Shown one piece after another: positions 10,090-15,687 of a stretch of DNA of 33,570 nucleotides (position 1 is its first letter; the number at the start of each line of letters is the position of its first letter). A program made the translations under genes and the position numbers. The notes below the pieces were generated by a model. The model saw only the letters and a program-made list of their open reading frames with translations, searched no databases and was not told the origin of the DNA. This stretch comes from Gammaproteobacteria bacterium Ga0074134. Its GTDB lineage: Bacteria; Pseudomonadota; Gammaproteobacteria; Ga0077554; Ga007554. The stretch lies in NCBI GenBank assembly GCA_001464965.1, contig LNEJ01000067.1, forward strand, positions 1-33,570. Direction: 5' to 3'.

Positions 10090-11319
10090 GTGAAAATCTA
10101 TCAAGTCGGTGGTTCCGTGCGTGACAAACTGCTCGGCCTGCCCGTGCAGGACCGGGACTGGGTTGTTGTGGGCGCCACGCCGCAACAGATGCTGGACCAA
10201 GGCTTCAAGCAGGTGGGCCAGGATTTCCCTGTGTTTCTGCACCCGGACACGCACGAGGAATACGCCCTCGCCCGCACCGAACGCAAGACTGGCCCCGGCT
10301 ATAAAGGCTTTAGCGTACACACCGCGCCCAATGTTACCCTGGAAGATGATCTGGTACGCCGTGACCTGACCATTAACGCCATGGCCGAAACCCCCGACGG
10401 CATGCTGATCGACCCCTACGGTGGCGCAGAAGACCTGCGCCAGCGGCGCTTGCGCCACGTCTCGGCCGCCTTCGTCGAAGACCCGGTGCGCATCCTGCGC
10501 GTGGCGCGGTTTGCCGCGCGGTTTGCCCCCCTGGGCTTCCGTGTTGCCGATGAGACCAATGCCTTGATGCGCCAAATGGTCGAGTCGGGCGAAGCCGATG
10601 CGCTGGTGCCGGAGCGGGTGTGGGCGGAGCTGGCGCGCGCGCTGGGCGAAGCGCTGCCCTCGCGTTTTTTTGAGACGCTGCGCGATTGCGGGGCCTTGGC
10701 ACGGTTGTTTCCCGATATCGACTGCCTGTTCGGCGTGCCTCAGCCGCCCGAACACCACCCCGAGATCGACACCGGCGTGCATGTGATGCTGGTACTGGAC
10801 CAGGCCGCGCGCCTGTCTCCCGATACGCAGGTGCGCTTTGCAGCGCTGCTGCACGACCTCGGAAAGGGGACAACGCCGTCCGAGGAATGGCCGCGCCACA
10901 TCGGCCATGAAGCGCGCGGCACCGATCTGGTGAAGGCAATGTGCAAACGCTGGCGTGTGCCTGGTGACTACCGCGATCTTGCCGTACTCACGGCAAAATA
11001 CCATACCCACTGCCACCGCGCCGCCGAGCTGCGACCGTCCACCTTGCTTGACACCCTGCAAGCACTGGACGCCTTGCGTCGCCCGCAGCGCTTCGAGAGT
11101 TTTTTACTGGCCTGCGAGGCGGACTTCCGGGGCCGTCCCGGCTATGAGGACAAACCGTATCCGCAGGCCGACATCTTCCGCGCCGCACTGCAGGCCGCGC
11201 AAACCGTGGATGCCAAGGCGCTGGTGACGGAGGGCCTTGCGGGCGAGGCATTGGCCGATAAACTTCGGCGCCAGCGCATCACGACGATAGCCCGCATCAC
11301 AAAAATACAAGAGAATTAA
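10090..11319 (+). CDS. cca: Multifunctional CCA tRNA nucleotidyltransferase / phosphohydrolase
   Basis: The 409-residue protein follows E. coli Cca closely. It opens [28 protein letters not shown], with the class II nucleotidyltransferase G-[GS]-x-V-R-D motif and the catalytic DRDW acid pair. DLTINAMA and [12 protein letters not shown] are the ATP/CTP template and neck segments. The C-terminal HD phosphohydrolase domain shows [18 protein letters not shown] and ALLHDLGKG. The enzyme adds or repairs the 3' CCA of tRNA, and the HD domain has phosphatase and phosphodiesterase activity. Start is GTG at 10090 with GAGGG about 6 nt upstream. It is followed after 3 nt by a DUF218 gene, so the two form an operon. 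Confidence 0.97.
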
Positions 11320-11322
11320 AGT

Positions 11323-12126
11323 ATGAGTATTCTGCTTACGCGCGCCGTCGAATCACTGGTGCTTCCGCCTGCCATAAATCTGGTGCTGGGCGTGATGGGG
11401 CTTATCCTGCTGCGCAAGTACAAACGCGCCGCCATCACGCTGTTGGCGCTGTCGATGGTGACCTTATATATCTTCAGCATACCCTTCACTTCACTCTCGC
11501 TGATGCGCTCGCTGCAAACCTATCCTGCCCTCACCGCCGAAGATCTGCGCCACCCTGAAGCGCAGGCCATTGTTGTGCTCGGCGCAGGGCGCAATTATGA
11601 TGCGCCGGAATACGGCGGCGATACGGCGTCCAAACTCGCCCTGGAACGCCTGCGCTATGGTGCGTATCTACACCGCCAGACCGGCCTGCCAGTGCTGGTT
11701 ACTGGCGGCGCCTTGCATGGCGAGACATCCTCCGAAGCGCGCATCATGAAAGATGTGTTGGTCAACGACTTTCATATCCCGGTGCGCTGGACAGAGGAGC
11801 GCAGTCTCACCACCACCGAAAACGCCAGCTTGAGCCGCCCTATTCTTGCACAGGCACACATTCAGCGTGTCTACCTTGTCACCCACGCCTGGCACATGCC
11901 ACGTGCCGTGCAGGCCTTCCAGCAGGCGGGAATTAATATCACTCCCGCCCCTACCGGCTTCACTACTCCTTGGCCGATCGAACGGGGCGGATTCGCCTGG
12001 CTGCCTTCCGCCCACGCGCTGCGAACATCCAGCTACGCCCTGCATGAATTGGGCGGGCGGCTGTGGTATGGGCTGCGAGGATTTATTAACAGCGGGGACA
12101 AGAAAACAAACGGCCCCGGCTTATAG
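11323..12126 (+). CDS. ElyC/SanA/YdcF-family (DUF218) envelope protein
   Basis: The 267-residue protein has two N-terminal membrane segments (about residues 12-30 and 36-58) and then a DUF218 domain. The domain starts AIVVLGAGRNYDAPEYGG and contains ERLRYGAYLHRQTGLPVLVTGG, SSEARIMKDVL, ENASLSRPIL and VYLVTHAWHMPRAVQAFQQAG. This arrangement is like ElyC, an inner-membrane protein affecting peptidoglycan and enterobacterial common antigen assembly in E. coli. Biochemical activity of the family is unsettled. The ATG is 3 nt after cca. The last codons and the stop (12124-12126) lie inside a strong hairpin at 12109-12142, so the 3' end is shared with an opposing terminator. Confidence 0.88.
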   Translation: MSILLTRAVESLVLPPAINLVLGVMGLILLRKYKRAAITLLALSMVTLYIFSIPFTSLSLMRSLQTYPALTAEDLRHPEAQAIVVLGAGRNYDAPEYGGDTASKLALERLRYGAYLHRQTGLPVLVTGGALHGETSSEARIMKDVLVNDFHIPVRWTEERSLTTTENASLSRPILAQAHIQRVYLVTHAWHMPRAVQAFQQAGINITPAPTGFTTPWPIERGGFAWLPSAHALRTSSYALHELGGRLWYGLRGFINSGDKKTNGPGL

Positions 12127-12142
12127 AAGAACCGGGGCCGTT
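12109..12142 (-). terminator. Strong hairpin shared by the convergent elyC-like and small-peptide genes
   Basis: The arms AACGGCCCCGG (12109-12119) and CCGGGGCCGTT (12132-12142) pair over 11 bp around a 12-nt loop that contains the elyC-like stop codon. On the minus strand the stem is followed by TTTGTTTTCTT, a real U-rich tract, so it is a good intrinsic terminator for the small peptide gene just upstream. On the plus strand only TTCCT follows. Confidence 0.75.
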
Positions 12143-12148
12143 CCTAGT

Positions 12149-12286
12149 CTACAAACTCGCGTATGATGTGACAAACCTTGCGAATGTCACCGCGACAACG
12201 AGGACTACCAGAATACCTGCGACGGTGGGAGCAATATCCTTCATGGGATAAAGATCCTTCACCTCCTTTTGTTTGCTTGGCTGCAT
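12149..12286 (-). CDS. Unannotated 45-residue single-pass membrane peptide
   Basis: The minus strand from ATG 12286 to TAG 12149 encodes 45 residues: a charged start MQPSKQKEVKDLYPMKDIAP, one hydrophobic segment TVAGILVVLVVAVTFARFV, then a short SYASL tail. GGGAGG lies about 9 nt before the start. A TATAGA/TTGGAA promoter candidate lies at 12399-12426 and a strong terminator follows the stop by only a few bases, so the unit is complete as a monocistronic gene. The charge pattern predicts a small inner-membrane peptide; topology is not determined. I do not recognise the family. A second in-frame ATG 30 codons before the end is possible. It is a free-standing gene between the cca operon and putA. 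Confidence 0.7.
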   Translation of the reverse strand: MQPSKQKEVKDLYPMKDIAPTVAGILVVLVVAVTFARFVTSYASL

Positions 12287-12398
12287 AGACACATCCCTCC
12301 CAGATAAACACCATGACAGTGACTAACCCAGTTGCTAAATGCATCGGAACCTACCAAACTGCACCACCGGACTACAAAAGCTCCGTTGCACGAATAAT

Positions 12399-12426
12399 TC
12401 TATAGCAAAAAACTCGGGTATTCCAA
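12399..12426 (-). promoter_or_regulatory. Candidate promoter of the 45-residue membrane peptide gene
   Basis: On the minus strand TTGGAA (12421-12426) and TATAGA (12399-12404) are 16 bp apart. They give a leader of about 105 nt before the start at 12286. The assignment rests on hexamer match and position only. Confidence 0.4.
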
Positions 12427-12428
12427 GA

Positions 12429-12518
12429 GAAATATTTCAGCACACGATTTGCTGGATATCTTATGAAATAAGGCTTTATTTACACAGAAAACAAATGGCT
12501 ATCGTCGAAAATATTTTC
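12429..12518. promoter_or_regulatory. A+T-rich gap with AT palindromes downstream of putA
   Basis: The roughly 270-base stretch between the small peptide gene and putA is unusually A+T-rich for this window. It holds the perfect palindromes GAAATATTTC (12429-12438) and GAAAATATTTTC (12507-12518), and the hairpin AAATAA-GGCT-TTATTT (12466-12481). I see no further gene in it. The palindromes may be operators or curved upstream DNA of the small gene's promoter. Confidence 0.35.
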
Positions 12519-12558: not shown

Positions 12559-15500
12559 CTATAAAGACAGCAAAGCTGCATTTCCTCCAACCGCTGCTGT
12601 ATTGGCACTCACCACCCGTTCTGTGGCGAAACGCAGCAATGTGTGCGGGCCGCCCGCCTTGGGTCCGGTGCCGGAGAGGCCTTCGCCGCCGAAGGGCTGC
12701 ACACCGACTATGGCACCAACCATATTGCGGTTGACGTAGATATTGCCGACACGCGCGCGGTTTTGAATACGGCGTATAGTTTCCTCGATGCGACTGTGGA
12801 TACCCAGGGTAAGGCCGTAACCAGTGCGGTTGATCGCGTCGACTACGTGATCAAGCTTGTCCGATGAATAGCGAATGACATGCAGGCAGGGGCCGAATAC
12901 TTCGCGCTCTAATCTCTCCAACCGGTCTATTTCATACACACGCGGAGCGAAGTAGGTACCGTACTCTGTCCCAAGGGGCAAACTCAGTTGATGGATGAGC
13001 TTGCCTTCACTTGCCATACGTTGCGCATGTTTTTCCAGTGTTCCTCTGGCAGAAACATCTATTACCGGTCCAATATCCGTCTCAAGCAATGCAGGGTCGC
13101 CAATGCGTAATTCATCCATTGCGCCTTGTAGCGCAGAAAGCACACGCGGGGCAATCTCATTTTGCAGAAATAACACTCTCAACGCGGAGCAGCGCTGCCC
13201 CGCACTGTTAAAGGAAGAGCGAATGACATCATTCACTACCTGCTCGACAAGCGCGGAGCTGTCCACAATCATTGCGTTCTGCCCGCCTGTTTCGGCAATG
13301 AGCGGCACGATAGCGCCAGTGCGGGCGGCAAGCGTTTGATTAATGCTGCGTGCGGTTTCGGTAGAGCCGGTAAAGGCCACTCCAGCAATGCGCGGATCGG
13401 CGATGAGTTTGTTACCTACCACATCGCCCTTGCCAGGCAACAGCTGCAGCACATCGACTGGCACGCCCGCCTCATGCAGCAGACGCACGGTGTGTGCCGC
13501 AATCAACGGGGTTTGGCTAGCGGGTTTGGCAATGACAGCGTTGCCCGCGGCAAGCGCCGCGGTGATCTGGCCGGTAAAGATCGCCAGGGGAAAATTCCAT
13601 GGGCTGATACAGGCAAATACGCCGCGCCCATGCAGGCTAAGTTCGTTGCGTTCACCCGCTGGCCCGGGCAGCACCATTGGCGCGGCAAAGTCGCGGCGCG
13701 CAAGCCAGGCGTAGTAACGGCAATAGTCCACGGCCTCGCGCACTTCCGCATGCGCATCCGAAATCGTCTTGCCTCCTTCGCGTACGCACAAGGCGATAAA
13801 TTCCGCCTGGCGCTGTTCAAACATGTCAGCCGCCCGCAGCAGACATTCTGCTCGCTTTTCCGCAGGTGTAGTGTCCCAGCCATGGGCCGCATTCGAAGCA
13901 CATTGCAGCGCCTGCTCCACCATGGCGGCATCAGCCAGGGCCACAGAGCCCGCTTCTCTGCGATTATCGTGCGGATCAACCACGCGGTGGGCTACGCCTG
14001 GGAGCATCTCACCTCCAACGATGGGCGCGGCAAACCAATGACGTGTCAGCGGCTCGCACAACGCCTGGGACAGCCTTTCGATTTCCAATGGATCAGAGAG
14101 ATTGATGCCATACGCATTGCGTCGTTCTGCACCATACAAATTGGCAGGCAATGGCAGACGCGGATGCGGTTTTATTTTTAAACTGTTCAACTCGATCACC
14201 GGGTCTGCAATCACCTGTTCGATCGGCGCCCGATCATCCGCAATGCGGTTGACGAACGAGGTGTTGGCGCCATTCTCCAGCAACCGCCGCACCAGGTAGG
14301 GGAGTAGATCTGTTTCGTTACCCACCGGCGCATACACCCGGCATGCCACATTTAATTTGTCAGCCCCTACCATCTCGCCGTACAAGGCTTCACCCATGCC
14401 GTGCAGGCGCTGGAATTCAAAATCGCGTTCCTCCCTCGCCAGTTCGAGGATATACGCCACAGTGTGCACATTGTGCGTGGCAAATTGGGGATAAAAGGTA
14501 TCACGTGCGGCAAGCAAGCGCTTGGCGCATGCGAGATAAGAGACATCCGTGGCGGCCTTGCGGGTAAATACCGGATAACCCACCAATCCTTGCACCTGTG
14601 CGCGCTTGATCTCTGTATCCCAGTAGGCACCCTTTACCAAGCGTAGCGGGATGCGGCGCTTCTCGCTGCGTGCCAGGCTTGCCAGCCAATCCAGCACATA
14701 AGGCGCACGTTTCTGGTAGCTCTGCACGGCAAGGCCAAACCCCTGCCAATCTCTCAACATCGGATGGCGGAACACCTCCGCGAAAATATCCAGAGACAAC
14801 TCCAGCCTGTCCGCCTCTTCGGCATCGAGCGTCAAAGCGATATGCGCCGCTTGGGCATGTTGCACCAGCGCCAGCACCTTGGGCACAAGCTCACGCAACA
14901 CACGCTGGCGCTGCGAAAATTCATAACGCGGATGCAGGGCAGAGAGTTTTACTGAGATGCTGGGAGCACTGACAATATCCACGTTTAGTGCAGAATTGGA
15001 AAGGCTTGCGATGGCGTGCGCATACGCATCAAAGTAACGCTCAGCATCATCCGTACACAGCGCCGCCTCGCCCAGCATATCGAAAGAATAACGGTAACGC
15101 TGGTTTTCCGCTGACTGGCTGCGCCGCTGGGCCTCCTCTATCGTCGGCGCCATAACGAATTGCTGTGCCATGACGTACATCGCCTGCTTCAACGCCAGAC
15201 GCACCAGCGGCGCGCCACTCTTCGCCACCAGACGTTTCAGCGATGACATGATGCCTTCGTCAGTCGCCGGTTCGAGCTTGACGATTTGACCTGTCAGTAT
15301 CAACCCCCATGTGGAGGCGTTTACCAGCAACGAATGGCTTTGGCCAAGATGTGCATCCCAATGCCCCTGGGAAAGTTTGTCGTGGATCAACCGATCCGCT
15401 GTAGCAGCATCAGGAATGCGCAACAGTGCCTCCGCCAGACACATCAATAGCACACCTTCCTCCGAGGAAAGATCGTACTCGCTCAAAAAGGCATCGAACC

Positions 15501-15687
15501 CATGAGCAGATTTTTCCCGCACCGCGCCAACCAGTTGCACTGCCCACGCATGCACGCGAAGTTGCGCATCGCTGGAAAGCCGCGCTTCATTCAGCAAAGA
15601 TTCGACACAGAGGGTTTCATCCGCTAAATAAGCAGTACGAATAGCGGTGCGCAGTAGTTCCAACGAGAAAGGAGTATTTTCAGCCAT
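12559..15687 (-). CDS. putA: Bifunctional proline dehydrogenase / L-glutamate gamma-semialdehyde dehydrogenase
   Basis: The 1042-residue fused enzyme oxidises proline to glutamate, passing electrons first to FAD and quinone and then to NAD. The proline dehydrogenase barrel (about residues 190-480) shows RLVKGAYWDTEIKRAQVQG, ATHNVHTVAYILELA and FEFQRLHGMGEALYGE. The aldehyde dehydrogenase half (about 530-1010) shows CISPWNFPLAIFTGQ, FTGSTETARSINQTL, ETGGQNAMIVD and the catalytic Cys in SAGQRCSALRVLF (near residue 830). There is no N-terminal ribbon-helix-helix domain and no extra C-terminal domain, so it is a minimal PutA that should not repress its own gene. It diverges from zwf. No proline transporter is adjacent. 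Confidence 0.96.
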   Translation of the reverse strand: MAENTPFSLELLRTAIRTAYLADETLCVESLLNEARLSSDAQLRVHAWAVQLVGAVREKSAHGFDAFLSEYDLSSEEGVLLMCLAEALLRIPDAATADRLIHDKLSQGHWDAHLGQSHSLLVNASTWGLILTGQIVKLEPATDEGIMSSLKRLVAKSGAPLVRLALKQAMYVMAQQFVMAPTIEEAQRRSQSAENQRYRYSFDMLGEAALCTDDAERYFDAYAHAIASLSNSALNVDIVSAPSISVKLSALHPRYEFSQRQRVLRELVPKVLALVQHAQAAHIALTLDAEEADRLELSLDIFAEVFRHPMLRDWQGFGLAVQSYQKRAPYVLDWLASLARSEKRRIPLRLVKGAYWDTEIKRAQVQGLVGYPVFTRKAATDVSYLACAKRLLAARDTFYPQFATHNVHTVAYILELAREERDFEFQRLHGMGEALYGEMVGADKLNVACRVYAPVGNETDLLPYLVRRLLENGANTSFVNRIADDRAPIEQVIADPVIELNSLKIKPHPRLPLPANLYGAERRNAYGINLSDPLEIERLSQALCEPLTRHWFAAPIVGGEMLPGVAHRVVDPHDNRREAGSVALADAAMVEQALQCASNAAHGWDTTPAEKRAECLLRAADMFEQRQAEFIALCVREGGKTISDAHAEVREAVDYCRYYAWLARRDFAAPMVLPGPAGERNELSLHGRGVFACISPWNFPLAIFTGQITAALAAGNAVIAKPASQTPLIAAHTVRLLHEAGVPVDVLQLLPGKGDVVGNKLIADPRIAGVAFTGSTETARSINQTLAARTGAIVPLIAETGGQNAMIVDSSALVEQVVNDVIRSSFNSAGQRCSALRVLFLQNEIAPRVLSALQGAMDELRIGDPALLETDIGPVIDVSARGTLEKHAQRMASEGKLIHQLSLPLGTEYGTYFAPRVYEIDRLERLEREVFGPCLHVIRYSSDKLDHVVDAINRTGYGLTLGIHSRIEETIRRIQNRARVGNIYVNRNMVGAIVGVQPFGGEGLSGTGPKAGGPHTLLRFATERVVSANTAAVGGNAALLSL

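Follow-up and report, generated by a model that had tools for sequence, protein, structure and literature searches.

Results

An overlooked gene at 12149-12286

Comparative sequence evidence indicates that the open reading frame at positions 12149-12286 of the window (the whole 33,570-nt stretch of DNA analysed, from Gammaproteobacteria bacterium Ga0074134) is a real, overlooked gene and not a chance frame, and that its product belongs to a family of small proteins that had not been recognised before, has evolutionary support and is of a known kind. The product is probably a regulated, single-span inner-membrane protein, made from a unit with its own promoter, leader and terminator, that has no catalytic role and adjusts a larger membrane complex in the manner of AcrZ or YohP. 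The features of the unit, all on the minus strand, are as follows.

12399-12427, minus strand: putative promoter CTTGGAA-N15-CTATAGA, read from the sequence, nearly invariant throughout the genus and recurring in other families
12287-12392, minus strand: long 5′ leader of ~105 nt, with the start site placed ~7 nt after the -10 element
12339-12391, minus strand: predicted leader hairpin of 13 pairs, GUGCA-CGGAGCUU ... AGGUUCCG-A-UGCAU, common to the sister genus G005
12295-12301, minus strand: Shine-Dalgarno sequence GGGAGGG, read from the sequence, 8 nt before the ATG
12149-12286, minus strand, stop codon included: 45-codon gene for a predicted single-span membrane protein; conserved frame, dN/dS 0-0.19
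12108-12143, minus strand: intrinsic terminator, a GC-rich stem followed by GTTTTCTTGT, conserved in the genus

The frame begins with an ATG at 12286, ends with a TAG at 12151-12149 and encodes MQPSKQKEVKDLYPMKDIAPTVAGILVVLVVAVTFARFVTSYASL. The original prediction of a complete small gene for a 45-residue peptide, forming an independent unit between the cca operon and putA, agrees exactly with this arrangement, in which the frame and its own signals lie between a cca-ydcF-like pair, convergent with it (10090-12126, plus strand), and putA (12559-15687, minus strand). An in-frame GTG at 12292 was discarded as a start codon; one base between the GTG and the ATG is missing in G001 and G003, and the ATG is therefore the start. 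The ribosome-binding site had been described as good, a judgement borne out by the GGGAGGG at 12301-12295 and by a purine-rich, Shine-Dalgarno-like sequence 5′ of the frame in all 23 members examined. Within the coding sequence, positions 12226-12261 hold an 18-nt tandem repeat, 83% identical, that gives the doubled peptide motif KDLYP-MKDIAP and may be a small internal duplication.

Loss of the frame or disrupting indels in relatives, named beforehand as what would speak against a gene, did not occur. In a search of 95 genomes the frame was kept in all three congeners at 98-100% amino-acid identity with no indels, and congener pairs differed by 0-1 nonsynonymous versus 1-6 synonymous substitutions each. 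The proposed search for homologues and estimate of dN/dS yielded relatives in several families and purifying selection on the frame, with dN/dS of 0-0.19 across pairs from four lineages (0-0.1 in the window's genus, 0.04-0.09 in family f81, 0.09 in f22 and 0.17-0.19 in more distant pairs); the pattern of substitution between families is that of a protein. Frames of 45 codons are frequent by chance, but a chance open frame with no gene would not account for the conservation of the frame, the low dN/dS, or the conserved promoter, Shine-Dalgarno sequence and terminator, and we regard that explanation as hardly credible.

Unit boundaries and genomic neighbours

The terminator matches the earlier description of an 11-bp stem with a U-tract, the 11-bp stem being the core of a GC-rich hairpin (12143-12108) that precedes GTTTTCTTGT. 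In 14 of 23 members the DNA 3′ of the gene contains a terminator scoring at least 24, compared with 5.7% of random segments. The terminator shares positions 12108-12126 with the 3′ end of the ydcF-like gene that runs toward it, and in G003 the DNA just beyond the terminator is different while the terminator itself is kept. Similarity between the four species of the genus spans the promoter, leader, frame and terminator, and fades toward putA and, in some, past the terminator. The neighbours differ between families, being putA and ydcF in f1, trxC and a beta-propeller gene in f81, and a DUF4124-like gene and uvrD in f128, which argues that the gene is an independent monocistron and that any partner is encoded elsewhere; for the same reason, the idea of an operon partner was dropped.

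A gene-specific promoter

The candidate promoter of the original prediction can be placed, from sequence, at 12427-12399, with a -35 element TTGGAA at 12426-12421 and an extended -10 element TGCTATAGA whose hexamer occupies 12404-12399. It is almost invariant in the four species of the genus, next to a divergent flank on the putA side. When the consensus derived from the window's genus was looked for in other groups, counterparts with the same spacing were found in G005 (CTTGGAA-N15-CTAAACT), f22 (CTTGGAA-N15-CTAGACT) and f81 (CTTGG[AC]A-N15-CTACACT or CTATGCT), and much of f128 has CTTGAAA-N15-CTAC-type sites that are individually weak; the pattern was not seen upstream of the f36 and f71 relatives. 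Most counterparts lie 64-112 nt 5′ of the ATG (172 nt in G005). Matches of at least 11 of 14 positions occur in 0.4% of random 250-nt segments, and a relaxed form of the pattern occurs 11 times over six whole genomes (1-3 times in each), with five of these occurrences at this gene, in five of the six genomes. No other observation argues as strongly for a functional upstream region, orthologous despite the differing neighbours, as the near-uniqueness of the pattern in each genome and its location at this gene. The C preceding the -10 element might point to a sigma-S promoter, which we offer only as a suggestion. The transcript had been expected to be about 250 nt long; the promoter position corrects the predicted size to ~290 nt.

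A conserved leader

The segment comprising promoter and leader (12287-12430) is 94-97% identical in congeners, whereas the coding DNA of putA and cca is 90-91% identical in the pairs that have diverged most; leaders in other families are of similar length. In an RNAalifold consensus of the window and G005 leaders, the hairpin shows one compensatory change (C-G to U-A), one change from G-U to A-U and no broken pairs. Because two lineages only are represented, this covariation, with its one compensatory change, is by itself not significant (equalled in 111 of 500 shuffles), and sequence conservation is the better evidence for the hairpin. A covariance model of the leader gave strong matches only 5′ of this gene in family f1, plus one weak additional match in G005 (E 0.002). 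Together with a promoter pattern found 1-3 times per genome, this specificity denotes a conserved region particular to the gene, and the idea of a shared regulon was rejected on the same grounds. Rfam returned no match at the gathering score; at E values up to 10 there were five weak sub-threshold matches, all in the terminator or coding part and none in the leader.

The earlier view that the small protein is regulated thus gains indirect support from a conserved gene-specific promoter and a conserved, structured leader, and the leader suggests added control after transcription. A more specific proposal, that the leader is an RNA switch for this one peptide responding to a ligand, a small RNA or a change in temperature, strikes us as doubtful; under it, a conserved CGGA would pair either with a nearby UCCG or with a distal UUCCG, forming two mutually exclusive stems that are kept in five species. 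We consider it very unlikely that the transcript itself is what matters, as a dual-function or regulatory RNA with the peptide secondary. Such an RNA would fit the observation that leader and coding part are equally conserved within the genus, and the lower synonymous divergence of the frame (0.03-0.22 versus 0.18-0.34 in putA, cca and ydcF), a gap not firmly established from ~32 synonymous sites; beyond f1, however, a covariance-model search finds no recognisable leader sequence, whereas the peptide is still recognisable and changes between families as a protein does.

Two further observations concern leaders elsewhere. In L026 (G001; contig C59, ~61426-61585), a MITE-like insertion of ~160 bp, with terminal inverted repeats CCCGAATGTTTCAT ... 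ATGAAACATTCGGG and TAG flanks, is sited after the 3′ arm of the hairpin. Four f128 loci (L082, L085, L086 and L088) have an apparent leader hairpin of their own, G[AG]U[CU]UAUU ... AAUAGAUU, directly 5′ of the Shine-Dalgarno sequence and not homologous to that of the window.

Protein anatomy

The hydrophobic segment of about 19 residues noted at the outset corresponds to a 19-residue core at residues 18-36 (mean Kyte-Doolittle 2.55). AlphaFold2 predicts two helices, a short one at the N-terminus and a long one at residues 15-43, with pLDDT >90 across the span, so that core and model agree with the single-span membrane peptide originally proposed and a single transmembrane helix is predicted. 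Members share a lysine-rich N-terminus, the motif K-x-LY[PR]-x-[KQ]D (K-x-LYP-x-KD in the window protein), a helix of ~22 hydrophobic residues, which in f128 members often contains GIPVV, and the C-terminal tail A[NR]FxTSYAG[LI] (A[NR]FxTSYAGL in the window protein). The N-terminal segment, with 3-6 basic residues, has a net positive charge in most members; no member has an acidic residue in the C-terminal tail, where basic residues number at most one, and none outside f1. The positive-inside rule is an established guide to membrane topology, and by this rule the charge distribution suggests an N-in/C-out orientation in the inner membrane, with the C-terminal tail on or near the periplasmic face.

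The statement that the family is not recognised stands. Scans of Pfam, NCBIfam, PHROGs and PADLOC gave weak membrane-helix matches or nothing, and a PDB profile search gave no meaningful match (best E 1.4). The SYAGL ending resembles the tail of photosystem II PsbJ, a kinship dropped for want of a Pfam or PDB match. SecE appeared among the weak profile matches (L046, E-value 0.003), and the protein does resemble the C-terminal segment of SecE in having a conserved amphipathic stretch that precedes a single membrane helix; at that E-value, with the match lying inside a longer SecE protein and with no common signature, we dismissed it as a chance membrane-helix match.

Distribution of relatives

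Among the 95 genomes, relatives outside the genus were found in the sister genus G005 (60% identical and also beside putA), in G007, another genus of the family (41%), and in G087, from a different family (52% amino-acid identity to the window protein). Profile searches of ~370 genomes of the class brought in further members from families f81, f128, f22, f36 and f71, so that at least five other gammaproteobacterial families have recognisable relatives, with one copy per genome; in f128 the gene is present in 9 of 11 genomes. A thinner sample of the phylum (249 genomes) gave a convincing match only in the window's own genome. The least certain members are those from f22, f71 and f36, in which the TSYAG tail is missing. 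Two of them, L106 and L107 (f71), have in common an upstream block, TTGACCTCTCAATCGATACATGCGAAATTA, that differs from the others, and their protein ends in QVPA instead of TSYAGL; they are possibly a separate branch of the family. The named relatives are environmental assemblies (groundwater, Hainich and biocathode). An association with sulfur oxidation, in which the protein would be an accessory of Dsr sulfur oxidisers, was discarded, DsrA exceeding the cut-off in 0 of 22 carrier genomes, as against 9 of the 23 genomes of the class used for comparison.

No copy was detectable in G004 and G006, well-assembled genomes of the window's family that are 94-97% complete, while the related G007 has the divergent one. 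These absences indicate that the gene is not essential throughout the family and argue against an essential core subunit. They also bear on the idea that a respiratory or other bioenergetic complex contains the protein as a small constitutive subunit, similar to CydX or CcoQ and encoded away from its operon, which we judge unlikely. The strict single copy, strong conservation, fixed-sequence C-terminal tail and own conserved promoter would suit such a subunit, and the study of CydX reports that subunits of this sort are often unannotated and that further ones exist (PMC4325964). Nonetheless, respiratory-complex genes adjoin the gene at none of the loci inspected, and the protein matches neither Pfam models nor solved structures.

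Discussion

The gene has been conserved in several families along with a promoter and leader RNA of its own, which leads us to favour a protein that probably serves a larger membrane machine as a regulator or stabiliser. Its lysine-rich N-terminus, with K-x-LYP-x-KD, would be cytoplasmic, followed by one membrane helix and a conserved tail at the periplasmic face. With no catalytic role, it would act through helix-helix and interfacial contacts with a larger membrane protein or complex, and the unvarying xTSYAGL sequence of the C-terminal tail points to a specific partner surface. The amount of protein would be set at transcription and via the leader RNA, and the outcome, by analogy with AcrZ and AcrB or with YohP-type proteins, may be an adjustment of the stability or activity of a candidate membrane partner.

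The closest parallels are small proteins of under ~50 residues such as AcrZ, which is reported to bind the membrane part of AcrB (PMC7267776), and YohP, a stress-linked protein induced both in stationary phase and during growth on minimal medium (PMC12719787). The protein resembles these in size, in its single helix, in being encoded away from any partner and, we infer, in being non-catalytic. It differs in giving no family-level match and in its motifs, K-x-LYP-x-KD and xTSYAGL, and its gene is restricted in our sample to a few gammaproteobacterial families; YohP, moreover, is mainly N-out/C-in, compared with the N-in/C-out orientation predicted here. CydX, the small subunit of cytochrome bd, is likewise short, single-spanning and often unannotated (PMC4325964). 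It is encoded in cydAB operons, whereas this gene is found beside putA, ydcF, trxC, uvrD and others, and at E values up to 5 neither Pfam nor NCBIfam gave a match to the CydX/YbgT profile.

The predicted small, hydrophobic inner-membrane protein and its long 5′ leader also resemble TimP and other type I toxins, and the protein might be a TisB- or TimP-like toxin, a hydrophobic peptide that depolarises the membrane when induced and whose long structured leader is silenced by antisense RNA. Size, the single span, the monocistronic unit and the long structured leader are typical of such systems, and the antisense RNA of TimP base-pairs in the 5′UTR, >60 nt upstream of the RBS (PMC7667032). Here, however, the opposite strand of the unit has no promoter-like site (although a missing consensus match is weak evidence), there is no complementary repeat as the source of an adjacent antisense partner, and the upstream flank is not conserved, with different DNA in G002. 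Neither Pfam nor PADLOC gave a toxin match. Type I toxins are patchy in distribution and fast-changing; this gene is strongly conserved, single copy and near-universal in f128, with strict motif conservation and dN/dS <0.2. Because no antisense partner was found and because of this degree of conservation, a toxin is less likely than an accessory protein, and we consider it improbable.

The main surprise in this family is that so small a unit, promoter included, has been kept so completely in several families whose genomic surroundings differ. The new family belongs to lineages for which knowledge comes mostly from environmental genomes, those of groundwater among them, and there gene callers may overlook genes of this size. 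Promoter and leader, both conserved and specific to the gene, offer unusually good handles on when and why the protein is made.
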